A program made the position numbers and the translations under genes. Below, one piece after another: positions 12,908-56,017 of a stretch of 64,000 nucleotides of DNA (the stretch's first letter is position 1; every line of letters begins with the position of its first letter). This stretch comes from Gentiana macrophylla. Lineage: Eukaryota > Streptophyta > Magnoliopsida > Gentianales > Gentianaceae. Below the pieces are notes generated by a model that did no database searches, was not told the DNA's origin, and saw nothing but the letters and a program-made list of their open reading frames with translations. The DNA is taken from contig CM047808.1 of the NCBI GenBank assembly GCA_026214975.1, forward strand, positions 65,064,583 through 65,128,582. Direction: 5' to 3'.

Positions 12908-13251
12908 TATAGAGATTTTAAAGATATTGAGAATAAGAACTAGAGAGGAAAAGGTAAGAAGAAGAAGATAAGAGAAAAATGTAACTCTTATTATTAAACT
13001 CAACCAAAATATGGCTGGTATATAAAGGCTTATTACAAGACATAAGCATGCGGTGCATTTAATGTAAAGTAAAAAGCATAAAGTAGCTATTTCTAGATAA
13101 ACTAAAAAGCACTATAATAACTACCTAGATACTCTTTGTAGAGTGGTTACCTAGCTATATTTAATAGAGAAGATATTGCTATATTTGTACATAGAGCTTA
13201 TAAATAAAAATAACATATGTTACACCATATAAACTTAGTAATATTCCAATA
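12908..13251 (-). repeat. Element C 3' LTR
   Basis: The 344 bp repeat is nearly identical to 22888-23231, differing at only a few positions (for example AATAAGAAC versus AAGAAGAAC near the left end). On the element's strand it starts TATTGGAATATTAC, an imperfect TG start. High identity of the pair indicates a fairly young insertion. Confidence 0.92.
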
Positions 13252-13861: not shown

Positions 13862-14980
13862 TCACAGCAAATGATATGTCTGGCTTGTGTGAGAGAGGTA
13901 GATTAGTCTTCCTATAAGCCTCTGATATTGTTCAAGGTCATAGTCTCCACCATCATCATCTTTTCCAAGCTTGACAGCACAATCAACTGGGGTATCAGCA
14001 GGTTTACATCCCAGTAATCCATAGTCAGAGAGTAAATCCAGGGTATACTTCCTTTGAGTGAGCAGGATGCCACTTGAAGATCTAGCAACTTCTATGCCTA
14101 AGAAGTATTTGAGAGGGCCAAGGTCTTTTACATCAAATTGTTGATGTAAGAAAGATTTGAGTTTAGCAATTTCTGAGTCTGAACTTCCAGTGATAACAAT
14201 ATCATCCACATACACTATCAAGATGGTGAGGTCCCCTGTTTCTGAATGTTGATAGAACATAGTGTGATCTCCATGTCCCTGTATATACTTAGCAAGTTTC
14301 ATAGCTTGAGTGAACCTGCTAAACCATGCCCCTAGGAGACTGTTTTAGTCCATAAATGGATTTATTCAGTTTTAGGATATGGTTGGGTGTTGGTAAAAAG
14401 CCAGGAGGGTACTGCATGTACACCTCCTCTTGAAGTTCCCCATTCAGAAAGGCATTCTTTATGTCAAGCTGATGGAGAGGCCAATTCCTTGTTGCTGCAA
14501 TAGATATGATAATTCTGACTGAGTTGAGCTTTGCTACGGGGGCAAATGTCTTATTATAGTCAATCCCCAAAGATTGAGTAAATCCCTTAGCCACAAGTCT
14601 GGCTTTGTACCTGTTTACAGTTCCATCTGGGTTGTGTTTGATGGTAAACAGCCACCTACACCCTACAGGTTTGACCCCTTTGGGTGTAGGTATGTCATCC
14701 CAAGTGTGATTCTTCTCCAAAGCATCCAATTCTTCCAAGACAGCCTTCTTCCATTGTGCGTGGTTTAGGGCCTGACAGATGGTGTTTGGAGTTTGAGAAG
14801 CATCTAAGTTGGCTAAAAAGGTCCTCTGTTTGCTAGACACTTTACCATATGACATATACCTATTAATAGGATGTTTAGTACATTCTCTAGTACTTTTCCT
14901 CAAGGCAATGGGTAAATCTGAAGTAGGTTCAAGATTAAGGTCAGGTTGCTCATAGATAGGTTCAGATTCAATAGGAGGAA
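13862..14980 (-). pseudogene. Element C reverse transcriptase
   Basis: The minus-strand order is CTKHPINRYMSYG linker, [57 protein letters not shown] and SIYGLKQSPRG. A frameshift near 14310 follows, then YVDD (14201-14212), the polymerase catalytic motif, and KYFLGIEVARS. The domain is complete apart from the frameshift. Its upstream neighbour, the integrase, lies beyond the inserted element D. Confidence 0.92.
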
Positions 14981-15641
14981 TGTTAAGGGCTAATTTGTAG
15001 TATTTATACATATATTTTATATATCAATTTTCTCCCATATCTGTATGATTTTCATAGAAATCGAGCTTATAATTGATTAATTGAGTAAATGAGGTTTTTA
15101 ATGGTTAAATATGAAAACGTATCAATTTTAGTCTTTATTTGATGATTTTATATTATTTTGGAAATATGTTATACTTTGGTATGTTTTGATCCTTGTGTAG
15201 ATACTCATTGATGATGGAAAAGATGATCCTAAAGAGCTAATTTCGAGATGAGAGAGGATCAATCAAAGATATGGAAGAATAAAAGAGATAAGGAAAGAAA
15301 TCAATGAAGATAAAGATGGAAATATCAAGATTTCGACAAAAGGATCAAGGCGTCGGGGTGAACGAGCGTCCATGCAGCGTCCACTATGGACGGGCGTCTG
15401 GTCATTTGAACTTGCGTCCAGAATCGTAATTCACATACAGAGATTTCAGACGCTGTCCAAACGAGCGTCCAACCACCGTTCGAGAAAGTGGACGGGCGTC
15501 CACATATTCGCGTTTAGCCCGCCGCTTTTGCTTTGAACCGACTTAGGTTACTGTAGCAACCGCCTCAGTTTTCTATTTAAAGCACAGCAGCCCCAAACCC
15601 TAAATTCATTCCGATTTTCATACACATCAAACACAAGAGAG
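14981..15641 (+). repeat. Element D 5' LTR (3' part missing)
   Basis: The 661 bp match the first 660 bp of the 3' LTR (17837-18496) closely. They include a TATTTAAAGC promoter-like box near 15576 and several GGACGGGCGTCC-like words (15360-15500). The copy ends in ACAAGAGAG directly against the primer-binding site. The 3' LTR has at least 870 bp more before its CCCAACA end, so this LTR has lost its right part. Confidence 0.85.
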
Positions 15642-15660
15642 TGGCGCCGTTGCCGGGGAA
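15642..15660 (+). promoter_or_regulatory. Element D primer-binding site (tRNA-Asp type)
   Basis: The 19 bases tggcgccgttgccggggaa are the classic Athila-lineage primer-binding site, complementary to the 3' end of an aspartate tRNA. All other primer-binding sites found in this window match initiator Met tRNA instead. Confidence 0.9.
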
Positions 15661-15959
15661 TAGATGTCATGTTGAATCTGATCTTGTTATTTCTCGATTT
15701 TGTTACGTTTATTTTTCGTTTTAATAAAAGTAGCGTTTACCAAATCGAGAGTTTTTATTTTGCCATGTTTCGATGACCATAAGGTTAAGAATGTGCAAAA
15801 GTTTTTTACTCGATTTGTTTAAACGTGAAGTATGTGTTTATGTGTTTTCTGATCTAACCTCTTTGTGCTTTAATTGAAAGTGGCTGCTATGATCTGTGTT
15901 AATATGCGTTTTAAGTTTTTAGGGTTTGTCTGCGTTTTCCTGCTCTCTGCTGTGTATTC

Positions 15960-16232
15960 GTTGTATGGACGAGCGTTCAAGTTAGTGAACGCCCGTCCCG
16001 ATTCTTTAAGCTGCGAGTAAACGAAGCGTTTGGAATATGGGACGTTCGTCCGTTCCAGAATTTTCAATCCTGCTCTGATTTGAAGAATCAGACGGGCGTC
16101 TGTAATTCTAAACACCCGTCCGGTCGGTTTTCAAGGCGAATGAACGCGTCAAACGCGAACGTTCGTCCGGGGCTAAAACTTCCAGGTGAACGTCCGTCTG
16201 ACTAATTGGACGACCGTCCGGTCTGAAGAGAT
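15960..16232 (+). repeat. GGACG-word hairpin cluster in the D leader
   Basis: At least eight words of the type GGACGAGCGTT, GAACGCCCGTCC, GGACGTTCGTCC, GACGGGCGTC, GAACGTTCGTCCGG and GGACGACCGTCCGG lie in 270 bp. The first two pair over 13 positions with one mismatch (15967-15979 with 15986-15998) around a 6-base loop, and others are self-palindromic. The same words occur in both D LTRs and in the LTR of element K. No ORF covers them. Confidence 0.75.
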
Positions 16233-16284
16233 GCATTCCAGGTTCTAATTTTTCTTGATCTAGTTTTCAATGCTTTATTTAATT

Positions 16285-16930
16285 TGGATTGTTTTCATTA
16301 GAGCTTCTGTGGCTACTTGATTTTTACATAGATGTCCTGAACTTATATGTTTGTACCTTTCCATCTATGAATCCATGTTAGATAATTGATCAATTCCTTA
16401 TATATGATTCATCTAGGCATGTTATAGTCACAGTCGGTTCTCGTACGCTATAACTGTTCTTATCATTGTTAGTGTAGCTAATGTCGGTTCTCGTATGCTA
16501 CATACTGTTATGATGAATCCTGTGAGCTTTAAGACTTATGTGCTTTCTTTTTATTTTTATAACTCATTTGGGTAGTAACTGTCGGTTTTCCGTTGCTACC
16601 ATTGCATCTTATGAGTTATATCTGTTTAGTATAGCTAACTGTTGGTTTCCATAATGCTATCACTTTTGACGAGTCTTAAGGCGCGTCTACACTGCATGTA
16701 ATGAACAGCACTGTCGTTTATCGTAACCTGTCATTATTTGGTAGACGTTTATTTTATACATGTCGTGTTGCTAATGAGTGGGCTAGTTTTCTTTCTTTTA
16801 TTTTCTTTTATTTTTGCATATCATTTAGATGCATATCATTTAGTTGCATGTCATCTAGTTGCATTGTTTTTCTATTTTTCTTTTATTTTTCTTGAGCGTA
16901 GTTAAATGTCGGTTTCCGTAATACTACCTC
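16285..16930 (+). ncRNA. Candidate structured RNA: array of six stem-loops with a conserved loop
   Basis: Six stem-loops share a loop core close to TGTCGGTTTCCGTA but have different perfect stems: GTTATAG/CTATAAC (16421-16454), GTAGC/GCTAC (16474-16501), GGTAG/CTACC (16571-16600), ATAGC/GCTAT (16631-16660), TAATGA/TCATTA (16699-16736) and GTAGT/ACTAC (16898-16927). Enclosing helices are GATTCATC/GATGAATC (16406-16413 with 16512-16519), TATAACTCAT/ATGAGTTATA (16558-16567 with 16611-16620), GCTTTAAGACT/AGTCTTAAGGC (16526-16536 with 16672-16682, one G-U) and CGTCTAC/GTAGACG (16684-16690 with 16741-16747). A small inner pairing (CGG/CCG, TGG/CCA) also covaries. Function is unknown; packaging or dimerisation is a guess. 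Confidence 0.65.
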
Positions 16931-17250
16931 GTTTTTATTTTGTTTCTGCACGGGCCGTAGTAGCTGTAGGGTTTCAGACCGACCTGATCACACTGAGCCT
17001 GTCAGAAAATTTTTAGGATTTTTCATGTAGTTTACATTAGATTGCATTTTCATGTAGTTGCACCTAGCCTACGAGTTTGTGATATTTTCATGTATATGTG
17101 TCCATCTTTATGTGAGCATAATTTGAATATCTCTATGATCCTTTTTCTCCATGTGCTTTATTTGTATAAGTCTAATCTTTTCCCCGTAGACTCTTTTTGC
17201 ACTAAATCTCTAAGTAAACATAATTGTAATTGTGTGTGTCGGAAGCTGGT

Positions 17251-17404
17251 TTATGATTTGGGTGAGGTAGGGTGTACCACGTATGTCCTATTCCACTATG
17301 ATGACCAAAAGCTCACGGCAGTCAGTTTATAGCATCGCCTTATGATTGGAGTAAGGTAGGGATTATCTTGAAATGTCCTATTCTCTATGAGGGCAAAAGC
17401 TTAT
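17251..17404 (+). repeat. Degenerate direct repeat in element D
   Basis: Two copies, 17251-17312 and 17339-17404, share TTATGATTtGGGTgAGGTAGGG-like text followed by ATGTCCTATTC, a CTATGA word and CAAAAGCT. GGTAGG and CCTATT inside each copy can pair with two G-U pairs. It lies between the stem-loop array and the polypurine tract; no coding sense is seen. Confidence 0.6.
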
Positions 17405-17810
17405 TCGATGTGTGTTAGAAAAGTGTGAAAAAGTGAAAATATTGAAATATATTATTATGAATAAGTAAGGACTTAGTTATCGTTAATCTTATACCCATAT
17501 AAATCAAGGATATGTTGTAGGGATTATCCTCTCTAGTCCATCAGAAATGTTTTAGATATTCTCTACTATTTCTTTTTGGGATATGTATGTTTTGTAAAGT
17601 GCTTGTTATAATTTTTGAATATTTCTAACTTAGATAGGAAACCGGGCTAGTTTTGGTTTGAATAACTTTCAAATTGTGGAACTTAGTGGAAGTTTATTAT
17701 GGCTATGCACACACTCACTTTGGTGAACTTCTAAGTTATTGAATATACTTTATATTTGTATAGATGTTTATTTGTCTCGAGCTTGACTTTGTTTTGTTTT
17801 GCTCGAGGAC

Positions 17811-17836
17811 GAGCAAAAAGATAAGTGTGGGGGTGT
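17811..17836 (+). promoter_or_regulatory. Element D polypurine tract
   Basis: GAGCAAAAAGATAAGTGTGG GGG precedes the 3' LTR start at 17837, the usual Athila layout (CTCGAGGACGAGCAA, then a G-rich tract). Confidence 0.8.
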
Positions 17837-20184
17837 TGTTAAGGGCTAATTTGTAGTATTTATACATATATTTTATATATCAATTTTCTCCCATATCTGT
17901 ATGATTTTCATAGAAATCGAGCTTATAATTAATTAATTGAGTAAATGAGGGTTTTAATGGTTAACTATGAAAACGTATCAATTTTAGTCTTTATTTGATG
18001 ATTTTATATTATTTTGGAAATATGTTATACTTTGGTATATTTTGATCCTTGTGTAGATACTCATTGATGATGGAAAAGATAATCCTAAAGAGCTAATTTC
18101 GAGATGAGAGAGGATCAATCAAAGATATGGAAGAATAAAAGAGATAAGGAAAGAAATCAATGAAGATAAAGATGGAAATATCAAGATTTCGACAGTGGAC
18201 TGGCGTCCAGGGGTGAACGAGCGTCCATGCAGCGTCCACTATGGACGGGCGTCTGGTCATTTGAACTTGCGTCCAGAATCGTAATTCACATACAGAGAGT
18301 TCAGACGCTGTCCAAACGAGCGTCCAACCCCCGTTCGAGAAAGTGGACGGGCGTCCACATATTCGACAGTGTCCACATTTGTTTTTGCCGAACCGACTTA
18401 GGTTCTCAGAGCAACCGCCTCGCTTTTCTATTTAAAGCACAAAGAGCCCCAAACCCTAAATTCATTCCGATTTCATACACATCAAACACAAGAGAGCAGC
18501 CGCATCTTGAGATTTGAAGGCCGGTCACCCGAGCCTTGTGCTCGGGTGAACCGAGGTTAGATTAGGAGTAGTTTAGATGCTTTTCGTTTCCGTTCTTGGA
18601 TCCTTCAATGTATGAGACTATGTGAGTTCTTCTTGATTTATTTAATTCCGCTTTTATTCATGATCTTGGTTCTTTTGTATTTTTCTATGTGGTTTGTATG
18701 GCTACGTGAATAAATTGAGGAATTAGTTCACGATAGATGTTTATAATACGTGGTTGCATAAACGTTAGATCACCATAGAAAGATAGGGTTTTTAATCGTT
18801 AATGATGACAAGTTAATCGATTAATTATCTAGGTTGTTAGATTCTAAAATACGAGAGTTAACTTTGAATCTACACCGAGTGTTGTATGGAAATCGGTTTC
18901 AACTTACGAGATAGTAGAGATTGATAAATTGGATTTACTAAGGAATTAGAATCCGTAGTTTGAGAATAAATTCACTAAGGAATTAGGGGTTTATGTCTCG
19001 TGAAAAGGTGAAATCACAAATCGAATTAGAATCATAAGATTAACTAGGATTGAGATCACATAGGTTTGTATATTGGTTGTTTGATCCCATGTCTTTAGTT
19101 TAGATTGTTTTTTATGTTTCTTAGGTTAGATTTATCTTGATTGTTCTTTTGTTTATTTTATTTGTTCTTTCGTTTATTCGTTCTTTGAGTAACAATTGGT
19201 AGGATTAGTGAAATCGATTCAACATCCCACCTCCCTGTGGATCGACCCCTTACTCACTTCGCTCTACTATCAATTACCCGGTATTCGGCCGGTTAGGAGT
19301 TAGTTTTGCATGGTAGTTAGGGTTTATAAATTTTCTTTTGTTTAATGATGCAAAATCCTCCCAACCGAGGTTAGATTAGGAGTAGTTTAGATGCTTTTCG
19401 TTTCTGTTCTTGGATCCTTCAATGTATGAGACTATGTGAGTTCTTCTTGATTTATTTAATTCCAGTTTTTATTCATGATCTTGGTTCTTTTTGTATTTTT
19501 CTATGTGGTTTGTATGGCTACGTGAATAAATTGAGGAATTAGTTCACGATAGATGTTTATAATACGGAAGTTGCATAAACGTTAGATCACCATAGAAAGA
19601 TAGGGTTTTTAATCGTTAATGATGACAAGTTAATCGATTAATTATCTAGGTTGTTAGATTCTAAAATACGAGAGTTAACCTGAATCTACACCGAGTGTTG
19701 TATGGAAATCAGTTTCAACTTACGAGAGAGTAGAGATTGATAAATTGGATTTACTAAGGAATTAGGAATCCGTAGTTTGAGAATAAATTCACTAAGGAAT
19801 TAGGGGTTTATGTCTCGTGAAAAGGTGAAATCACAAATCGAATTAGAATCATGAGATTAACTAGGATTGAGATCACATAGGTTTGTATATTGGTTGTTTG
19901 ATCCCATGTCTTTAGTTTAGATTGTTTTTTATGTTTCTTAGGTTAGATTTATCTTGATTGTTCTTTTGTTTATTTTATTTGTTCTTTCGTTTATTCGTTC
20001 TTTGAGTAACAATTGGTAGGATTAGTGAAATCAGATTCAACATCCCAATTCCCTGTGGATCGACCCCTTACTCACTTCGCTCTACTATCAATTACCAGGT
20101 ATTCGGCCGGTTAGGAGTTAGTTTTGCATGGTAGTTAGGGTTTATAAATTTTCTTTTGTTTAATGATGCAAAATCCTCCCAACA
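17837..20184 (+). repeat. Element D 3' LTR with internal tandem duplication
   Basis: The 2348 bp LTR begins TGTTAAGGGCTAATTTG. Its first 660 bp pair with the 5' LTR. The rest includes a perfect small hairpin (CACCCGAG/CTCGGGTG, about 18527-18548). Two near-identical copies of an 815 bp block then follow in tandem, 18549-19362 and 19363-20184, each ending with the Athila-type GTGGATCGACCCCTTACTCA region. The copies differ at few places, for example ATTCCGC against ATTCCAG and AATTACCCGG against AATTACCAGG. Confidence 0.88.
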
Positions 20185-21715
20185 AGGAACAGGGGTATGA
20201 GGAAGAGACTGACTGGTTTTCTTTTGTCTAGTATTGATTATGGGAGTAGGACTAGGTGAGTTGGTAGGCTCCTCCTCAGCAAGAGTGTGGATAGAAGAAT
20301 GTGAGGTAGGAGATGCTGAGATCACAGGGTCATCAGTATTTTCCTCATGAATGGTTCTTGTAGAAGGTTCAGATATGGTTATAGATGAGGGACTGTGATT
20401 AGGCATGGGCAGAGTAGTAGGGTCATACAGAAACAAGTATTGATCATCATTGTTGTCAGGTTTTGTGTGGTAAAAAGGTTGATCTTCAAAGAAGGTAACA
20501 TCACTAGACACATAAAATTTATGAGTGTTTGGGTCAAAGCATTTGTACCCCTTTTGAGTAGCAGAATAACCAATAAATATAGTTTTTATAGCTCTAGGAT
20601 CCAGTTTGGTTTTAGTGGGGGCATGGTTATGTACAAAGGCTGTACATCCAAAGATTTTCAGAGGTAAGGTGGATACAAGTTTAGAGTTAGGGAATATGGA
20701 GTTTAGAGCATCAATGGGGGTACTGAATTTCAGTATTCTGGATGGCATTCGGTTGATTAAAAAAGTGGCTGTCAGAACAGCCTCATTCCAGTAGTAGTTA
20801 GGGACATTATAGGTATAAAGCAGGGTTCTAGCAACTTCCAAAAGATGGCGGTTTTTCCTTTCTGCTACCCCATTTTGTTGGGGTGTGTTGGTGCAGGAAG
20901 TTTGGTGGACTATACCTTTCTTGGTGACAAAGGGATTAAGGCAGGAGTTTAGGTATTATGTTCCATTGTCAGATCTGAGGAATTGTATTTTGGTCTGGAA
21001 TTGAGTTTCAATCTTGTTATAGAAATTTTCAAACATATTAGGAACTTCTGATTTATGTTTCATAAAGTAAACCCAGGTGAGTCTAGTGTGATCATCAATG
21101 AATGTGATAAACCAGGGTTTGTGAATAATGTTGGATGTTCTGGATGGTCCCCAGACATCAGAGTGAATAAGCATAAAAGGCTTGGATGCCTTATAAGAGA
21201 CAGGTTTAAAGACAGTTCTAGTTTGTTTGCCCAAGATACAATTTTCACATTTCAAATTTTCAATACAAACATCAGAAAACAAGGAAGGATACATCCTTTT
21301 TAGGTAGGGAAAATTAGGATGTCCTAATCTAAAATGTAACAACATTATCTTATTACATTTAGATTTCAAGCTAACATTAAGACCACTTGCATTCTTAGGA
21401 TAGCTGCTATGGATGAGATACAGACCCTCAGATTTCCTAGCACTGCCAATCTTCATGTGAGACCCCAGATCCTGAAACTCACAATGAGTTGAATAAAAGT
21501 TAGCAACACATTTCCTATCATTGCAGAACTGGCTGACAGAGAATAGGTTACAATCAAGTTTAGGAACATAAAGAACAGAGTTTAGGGTGAGGTTTGGTAG
21601 GATTCTAACTGACCCTAAGCCAACCACTTTGGAAGAAGAACCATCTGCAATAGTAACATAGTGATCACTTCTTACTATTAGTGAAAGAATGGAAAAGGGA
21701 GAATTCACCTGTCAT
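20185..21715 (-). pseudogene. Element C integrase and linker
   Basis: The minus-strand frame from 21708 has the GAG-pre-integrase zinc region (HFRLGHPNFPYLKRM, then CENCILGKQTR). The catalytic core follows, with its first Asp in HSDVWGPSRTSN, the second region SDNGT and the Glu-bearing QQNGVAERKNR. A stop codon interrupts just after FLRSDNGT (about 20955). The C-terminal part (20841-20190) has YYWNEAVLTATFLINRMPS and GCTAFVHNHAPTKTK, then an acidic linker leading to RT. Element D splits the linker at AGGAA. Confidence 0.92.
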
Positions 21716-22887: not shown

Positions 22888-23231
22888 TATAGAGATTTTA
22901 AAGATATTGAGAAGAAGAACTAGAGAGGAAAAGGTAAGAAGAAGAAGATAAGAGAAAAATGTAACTCTTGTTATTAAACTCAACCAAAATATGGCTGGTA
23001 TATAAAGGCTTATTACAAGACATAAGCATGCGGTGCATTTAATGTAAAGTAAAAAGCATAAAGTAGCTATTTTTAGTTAAACTAAAAAGCACTATAATAA
23101 CTACCTAGATACTCTTTGTAGAGTGGTTACCTAGCTATATTTAATAGAGAAGATATTGCTATATTTGTACATAGAGCTTATAAATAAAAATAACATATGT
23201 TACACCATATAAACTTAGTAATATTCCAATA
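22888..23231 (-). repeat. Element C 5' LTR
   Basis: This is the 344 bp mate of 12908-13251. It is followed at 23232-23236 by the GATAT target duplication. Confidence 0.92.
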
Positions 23232-54701: not shown

Positions 54702-56017
54702 TGTAATATCCCGAAATTTTGACTTACTAATTAATTAATAAAGGATCTAATTATTTGGACGGGCCTAAAGTGTTGTTTCTTTCTTTGTGTTGTGAAAAAA
54801 CAGCTCAAAAATCGCGTAGAGAGCTTTTAGGTTTTAGTTGAAACCCAGTGGACGGGCGTCGCCTTGAGAGGACGGCGTCCGGTCTTGGTCTCAACTTCGG
54901 CGGGCGTCCGGATTCTGGGCGGGCGTCTGAAGAACTACCTGATTCGGGATGTAAAATTTTACGGTGGGCGGGCGTCCAAGTATAATGGACGGACGTCCAG
55001 TGCTAAAAATCAATTCGAGGATGTAACAGTTTCCTGGACGCGTCGTCGAGATCTTGGGCGGGCGTCTACTTTTCAAGCGGGCGTCCAACATTTCGAGGCG
55101 GGCGTCCGGTTTAAATGTTTTCCTTCTTTGTTAGTTATGGATAAACCTTACGAACTTGTTTTGTAAGTTGTGTTTGGATGAGACAACGGTATTGGTAACA
55201 TTGGGTTTTGGATTTTGGGCATTGGGCTCGTAGACCCGTAGTGGTTGGGCCGGATAGGGTAGCTCCCAAAGCCGTAAACCCGGAAGGTTTCCTTCGACTT
55301 CAATGACCTACGTGTTTGGGGAGTTGCAGGCGATGATGGGTCGGGCCGGATAAGGTAGTACACAGGCCGGGAACCGGGAAGGTTTCCTTGCACCCGAAAG
55401 ACGTGATGGTCCATCTAGTATGGTACCATTGGATGACCTTTAGGACCCTCACTCTCTGTGGCTTTACCCTTTTGAGGATGTGCACATTCGGGACCTTTAG
55501 GTGGCTAGTTGTGATGTTTGGTATCCATGTATGGGCAGTGGTCGTAACTTTTATAGATTGGTTGGGTCCTTCATAAATTGGTGGTACTTTTCATGGGTTG
55601 GTTTTACCTTACGTATACTAGATTTATTCTTACTCAACTTTATAGTTGACGGTTTTGCTTTCGTTTGACCTGCTTGTGATCCATTTATGGGAGGCGATTC
55701 TTAGCAGTACTTCTATGGATGTTTGCTTGTTCTTTGGGATGTCGCGGGGTTTGAGAGCCACGTAGTCAGCTTGATCCACATGTTTTCTACATTATTTGGA
55801 ATTTTAAATTTTAAAGATTTTGACGTTCCGCATAATTTCATTTTCTTTAGGACACTAGTATTCACTTTAATACTTTCTTTTAAAATAATGAATGGTGAAT
55901 GTTTATGTTCTTTCTGTTGTGGGATGTTGCATGTTACCGCCACGATCGTGTGTCGTGATGAGTGGCACTCACGGTGACCAATACCGGCGGCGACGGGATT
56001 GGAAATCGAGTGTTACA
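54702..56017 (+). repeat. Element K 5' LTR
   Basis: It begins TGTAATATCCCGAAATTTTG and ends GAGTGTTACA. About 150 bp in, a 260 bp segment (54849-55110) carries some ten GGCGGGCGTCC / GGACGGACGTCC words. Two GGGCCGGATA(G/A)GGTAG-type repeats follow (about 55248 and 55340), each with a CCGGAAGGTTTCCTT-like end. Compared with 58642 onward, the U3 agrees only for about 55 bp and then lacks an AT-rich part, so the two LTRs differ by an indel. Confidence 0.82.

Follow-up and report, generated by a model that had tools for sequence, protein, structure and literature searches.

A gene-less LTR retrotransposon in the genome of Gentiana macrophylla carries, in its leader downstream of the primer-binding site (PBS), an array of six hairpins that share a loop and are each closed by a matched stem of their own. 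It is almost certain that selection acts here on RNA structure in itself, and the six hairpins would have been retained by this selection in the sense RNA of the element. Judging from sequence comparison, we propose, with a probability of roughly 0.4, that the array provides docking sites for packaging into the particles of a gag-pol partner family. How the RNA of gene-less LTR elements is mobilised in plants is poorly known. The array offers a small, repeated RNA module that evolution has already put to the test, and the large family that carries it has a candidate partner and natural recombinants, which makes the question directly testable.

The window, by which we mean the whole stretch of 64,000 nucleotides that was analysed, holds the six hairpins (h1-h6) together with helices E12, E34, E3, E5 and U, all within 16327-16927 (Table 1). 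The original prediction had described six stem-loops grouped by enclosing helices, and every arm that it named is present and paired in the window. In each hairpin, an outer stem of 5-7 bp leads through an internal loop to a short inner stem (CGG/CCG in all except h4) that is capped by a U-rich end loop.

Table 1. Positions in the window of the array-bearing element, its parts and the paired segments of the array
Feature	Position	Strand	Basis or remark
LTR retrotransposon without coding capacity, bearing the array	14981..20184	+	target duplication AGGAA at 14976-14980 and 20185-20189
5' LTR, 3' part missing, abutting the PBS directly	14981..15641	+	LTR comparison with other copies
Primer-binding site TGGCGCCGTTGCCGGGGA	15642..15659	+	sequence
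Helix U, CATAGATG/CATCTATG	16327..16369	+	upstream of the hairpins
Helix E12, GATTCATC/GATGAATC	16406..16519	+	encloses h1 and h2
Hairpin h1	16421-16427/16448-16454	+	
Hairpin h2	16474-16478/16497-16501	+	
Helix E34, GCTTTAAGACT/AGTCTTAAGGC	16526..16682	+	encloses E3/h3 and h4
Helix E3, TATAACTCAT/ATGAGTTATA	16558..16620	+	around h3
Hairpin h3	16571-16575/16596-16600	+	
Hairpin h4	16631-16635/16656-16660	+	inner stem TGG/CCA
Helix E5, CGTCTAC/GTAGACG	16684..16747	+	around h5; weakest helix
Hairpin h5	16699-16704/16731-16736	+	13-pair stem in two diverged copies
Hairpin h6	16898-16902/16923-16927	+	
3' module, long hairpin, well conserved, common to partner locus L101	17233..17324	+	related second unit at about 17340-17401
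Polypurine tract (PPT) AAGTGTGGGGGTGT, common to partner locus L101	17823..17836	+	sequence
3' LTR with internal 817-bp tandem duplication	17837..20184	+	ends CAACA at 20184

What distinguishes the array from chance is the shared loop combined with its own matched stem; hairpin counts alone are mildly above chance. With the six cores held fixed, the longest Watson-Crick stems that their flanks can form measure 7, 6, 5, 5, 6 and 5 (sum 34), a sum reached by none of 5000 flank shuffles (mean 20.6, largest 31). By plain count, stems of 5 bp or more are moderately enriched (15 vs 9.2 ± 3.1), and 10 of 200 shuffles reach 15. The expectation that shuffled sequence would not reproduce such an array is upheld for the stems around shared cores, and the plain stem count bears it out more weakly. 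Folding of the 701-nt segment 16250-16950, suggested as a check, gave a structure more stable than 20 shuffles (-150.8 vs -133.5 ± 6.2 kcal/mol; z -2.8); taken one by one, the hairpins exceed the stability of their own shuffles only slightly (z -0.55 to -1.81). A 14-base core, allowed up to three mismatches, has six matches in the window against 2.4 expected, a number that 6 of 100 shuffles reach; five of the six fall within 490 bases. The search for the largest 14-mer family in the segment says nothing about the core, because that family is a T-rich string different from it.

In the genome that holds the window (G000, 1.79 Gb), the array segment drew 3812 first-look candidates, of which 40, the window included, were scored and found to be 91-100% identical; the 15-base core CTGTCGGTTTCCGTA has 1739 exact places, its reversed control none. 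The family likely comprises over a thousand copies. Among 14 core places that were fetched, 13 match the array over 663-707 columns at 82-91% identity, and L088 has the array end only. A variant core pattern is found at 73 places, 30 of which were cut out and match the array at 85-92%. One comparison used 65 rows, made up of 34 of 39 copies, the 30 pattern loci and the window; L048, L050, L051, L052 and L053 were omitted from it as duplicates of pattern loci, but only L050 and L051 had counterparts among those cut out, and the omission of the other three was unnecessary. The set of 78 arrays uses 13 of the 14 core loci, L088 being left out, and loci L008-L015, which overlap others, were left out of the counts.

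In 40 copies, nucleotide diversity is 0.0245 in stems (154 columns), 0.078 in loops (124 columns) and 0.149 in spacers (118 columns of 16401-16750). Spacer diversity is thus about six times that of the stems, and loops are less conserved than stems. All five stem variants present in at least six of these copies keep a standard pair, and the rarer ones are mixed, consistent with decay after insertion. Stems mutating without compensation in other copies, named at the outset as the finding that would speak against structure, are not what the copies present; their stems keep their pairs.

Of the ungapped pair cells in the 78 arrays, 5889 of 5981 are standard pairs, compared with 26-48% in a control in which partners were slid by one to three bases. 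Two-sided changes, counted among copies related to one another, affect 8 of 77 pairs and 31 cells, and none of 500 shuffles reaches either value; the control slid by -3 has more two-sided pairs (11) but fewer cells (24), with 48% paired. The exchange can be seen stepwise as a series A-U > G-U > G-C. Over the 78 arrays, pair 16328:16368 of helix U occurs 37 times as A-U, 21 times as G-U and 18 times as G-C; for pair 16900:16925 the numbers are 74, one and three, respectively. Larger changes of stem are also found when G-U is allowed: locus L086 has GATAGAT/GTCTATC in place of the ATAGC/GCTAT of h4, L089 and L092 have h5 with a 13-pair stem, an extra hairpin GTGTGGT/ACCACAT stands in L086, L089 and L095, and another, TGTGAGT/GCTCACA, in L086. 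Among 79 arrays, each with 1-8 recognisable cores (mostly 4-6), 364 of 384 cores are surrounded by a stem of 5 bp or more without a mismatch, with 24 different arm strings, some of which differ in length only. When the 5' flank was combined with a different hairpin from its own array, 28% of 1600 trials gave such a stem; the figure for a random hairpin was 38%. Consensus folding done de novo on 40 of the 78 arrays recovered 9 of 11 helices, two of them minus one pair; E5 and h5 were not recovered. The consensus fold energy is -76.8 vs -44.6 ± 4.9 for 40 column shuffles (z -6.5). This score reflects folding energy, because the covariation term is no better than in column shuffles (1.9 vs 2.4 ± 0.7).

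A sense transcript tolerates G-U and not A-C, whereas cruciform DNA would treat both alike. Among + strand changes in stems, A>G and C>T keep the pair, whereas it is broken by T>C and G>A. Events shared by two or more copies divide 24:8, keeping to breaking, in stems and 44:87 in spacers (78 arrays; Fisher p = 3.7e-5), and all events divide 37:25 and 70:133 (p = 6e-4); part of the eight breaking events, among them T>C at positions 16368 and 16925, are second compensation steps. This sense-strand G-U asymmetry therefore argues for selection on sense RNA and not on cruciform DNA. The original prediction had left the choice between RNA and cruciform DNA open; conserved stems and kept pairs favour the first, and the sense-only bias speaks against the second.

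The element had been expected to lack proteins of its own, and this is borne out: there is no open reading frame of at least 100 aa in 15012-20091, and the longest ATG frame in the forward frames of 3.7-kb stretches from 39 copies has a median of 70 aa and a maximum of 241, the latter being an integrase joined in copy L027. Its traits are of the LARD type, comprising LTRs, a target duplication, a PBS, a PPT, a conserved non-coding internal domain and no coding capacity. The host of the element is a copia-type element on the opposite strand, with a repeat pair at 12908-13207 and 22888-23187, and RVT_2 and other retroelement domains lie in reverse-strand frames on both sides of the nested element. 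The 5' LTR agrees with 17837-18496 at 632 of 648 aligned bases and is cut off at the PBS junction (15641/15642); the 3' LTR is complete. In most other copies the LTR end CAACA is followed by AAAG and then by the PBS, which we take to be of the tRNA-Asp type.

Based on shared sequence, a gag-pol family that has the 3' module, PPT and LTR start in common with the array element is likely its partner. At L101, the 2.8 kb past the integrase share window segment 17234-17530 (76% over 307 columns) and contain no core within three mismatches; the PPT and LTR start match those of the element at 86% over 59 columns. The two families thus have the PBS, PPT, LTR start and 3' module as cis features in common. 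The stretch 17233-17401 has two related 60-nt units whose diversity of 0.018-0.034 places them among the best-conserved 30-base bins, separated by a variable spacer (0.196). Its first unit folds as a long hairpin, nearly all pairs of which are kept in L101, and the module alone folds moderately better than 60 column shuffles (z -1.9). The 3' module is a candidate shared cis signal and would be an equally good packaging candidate as the array.

Joins between the two families occur at the PBS. Partner-like sequence abuts it in 5 of 39 copies, as integrase in two and as a partner-like LTR end in three; 32 copies have the family's own LTR end there, and two have no PBS within three mismatches. The integrase frame reaches, or nearly reaches, the PBS in L027 and L021. 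The L021 frame matches PF00665; that of L027 matched no Pfam family, yet it aligns with L021 at 64%, and its own family is very abundant (35392 first-look candidates; 150 scored, 88-100%). After the integrase, L101 reads CAAACCAAAGTGGCCC and L027 passes into the array element's ACAAAAGTGGCGCC, and comparison of the two places the L027 join at a short common word. In L030, L042 and L043, the 53-78 columns up to and including the PBS match L102 at 94-97%. Locus L102 has an LTR end with a PBS, then about 650 nt of leader and a Gag frame that matches PF03732; its PBS lies 6 kb upstream of a partner integrase match. Template switching between co-packaged RNAs would give such joins; microhomology-mediated DNA repair could be another source. 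The common 3' features and the joins would be consistent with mobilisation in trans by this partner. The PBS is the cut point of the 5' LTR in the window as well as the join point in the five other copies.

The leader of L102, the sole partner leader read, has no core within three mismatches and three matches at exactly four. For ten integrase places on contig C1 below 105.5 Mb, compared by eye with the first 100 core places listed, an exact core was found within 15 kb upstream in none; one of the ten has cores about 3 kb downstream. The partner seemingly does not have the same signal, because no core was found in the L102 leader or upstream of these ten integrases, and the array looks specific to the gene-less family on the evidence of that one partner leader.

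We propose that the row of equivalent loops would let the RNA of the gene-less element be taken up into the particles of its gag-pol partner, where array RNA and partner RNA would meet in one particle. The repeated loop would be bound by a protein, for which Gag or nucleocapsid of the partner is the simplest candidate, and several loops would give higher avidity; if an oligomeric protein bound at many sites at once, equal loops on free stems would be expected to be selected. The array may be an addition that the gene-less family has made on top of the shared cis features. Reverse transcriptase stalling at the PBS could then switch to the second RNA in the same particle and so generate the joins. 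The role in packaging, dimerisation or Gag binding that the original prediction suggested is inferred, and the one partner leader read, that of L102, has no array. A bolder version, in which the array is an RNA device of the parasite only, made by multiplying a single hairpin and giving the copies new matched stems, its docking loops winning entry with no equivalent in the partner and the PBS joins being footprints of co-copying, is conceivable but doubtful.

The main rival to Gag docking is a host export or stability factor. The array could be a nuclear-export or RNA-stability element whose internal loops recruit a host factor for an untranslated RNA, and the constitutive transport elements of simple retroviruses have a comparable export role. 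Stem conservation, pair keeping and stems particular to each hairpin would serve this explanation equally, and a need peculiar to a gene-less RNA would fit with there being no array in the one partner leader read. Transport elements of the MPMV type also have repeated internal loops on freely paired stems; theirs are two loops in one long helix, whereas the hairpins here are separate, a row unlike the arrangement known for such elements. No known transport element was matched in Rfam either. We regard an export or stability role as unlikely.

It is also possible, though improbable, that the hairpins mediate dimerisation or 5'-3' cyclisation of the element RNA through loop pairing. The CGGUUUCC loop could pair with the complementary word GGAAACCG at 17637, but this site is conserved no better than its surroundings, for which reason loop-to-3'-end pairing was dropped, and the loop is not self-complementary beyond its own inner stem. 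We consider it very improbable that the inverted repeats are kept by cruciform DNA or by hairpin-perfecting template switches with no RNA function: perfect short inverted repeats in many copies would be expected from such processes, but the bias toward keeping G-U on the sense strand only, the stepwise pair series and the conservation of long-range helices such as E34 would not. Least probable of all is a source of structured small RNAs, which would suit a well-folding and highly repeated array, but for which stems of about 5-13 pairs are short for Dicer-like processing, which would moreover need no kept loop.

LARDs and TRIMs, such as Cassandra, are likewise LTR elements without coding capacity that are assumed to be mobilised in trans; the Cassandra structure is described as a super-hairpin of LTR and 5S parts, whereas the present one is a leader row of same-loop hairpins with matched stem exchanges. 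To our knowledge, the packaging sites of retroviruses, Ty1 and Ty3 are not rows of six near-identical hairpins, and they belong to the coding element itself, whereas this array lies in a gene-less one. Conserved leader hairpins downstream of the PBS, as in packaging signals of the retroviral type, are likewise present here. PMC4974528, which reviews Ty1 and Ty3 RNA packaging, places structured 5' RNA near the PBS in retroviral and Ty1/Ty3 packaging regions. PMC3735527 describes BARE2 as a parasite of BARE1 in barley that cannot make Gag, whose RNA is packaged in BARE1 particles and which has "conserved dimerization and packaging signals"; these signals are common to the helper BARE1, whereas the array is absent from the one helper leader read. 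PMC10578108 concerns another plant RNA.

Searches of the open-licence literature (titles and abstract starts) found no description of a comparable hairpin array. No Rfam 15 covariance model matched the window at the gathering score, and a search of segment 16250-16950 with a limit of E 5 gave one match only, on the other strand (E 4.4). Three viral contigs with a 20-base hairpin pattern were rejected, their alignment to the internal region spanning at most 25 bases, as were four with the PBS word and no core within two mismatches; blastn against phages and plasmids found no match. Membership of the element in Athila is not established, the "Athila-like" label resting on the PBS and PPT, to which we attach a lineage meaning by assumption. 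Of two broken Gag-side frames at one partner locus, one matches PF03732, a general family, and none PF03078 (ATHILA). As a marker of the partner, PF03078 was tried and discarded: two loci upstream of its matches lack this PBS and do not resemble the element. Loci L099 and L100 lie upstream of PF03078 matches and have no such PBS, and L100 has an integrase-like frame upstream of the match.

Several further observations concern the element and its genome. A second set of repeats, palindromes of the form GACGNNCGTC, lies at 15361-16219 and 18216-18356, with 12 in the 5' LTR and leader and four in the 3' LTR. Words like GGACGGGCGTCC are also found at 54848-55110, a stretch of a different element. 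A second PPT-like word, GTGTGGGGG, occurs in the internal region of L016 (around 2449) and also in L021, L029, L041 and L050, about 1 kb past the array start, a part in which the window copy is shorter. Lastly, 12 contigs among C1-C13 measure 95-196 Mb each, which suggests a haploid number of 13.
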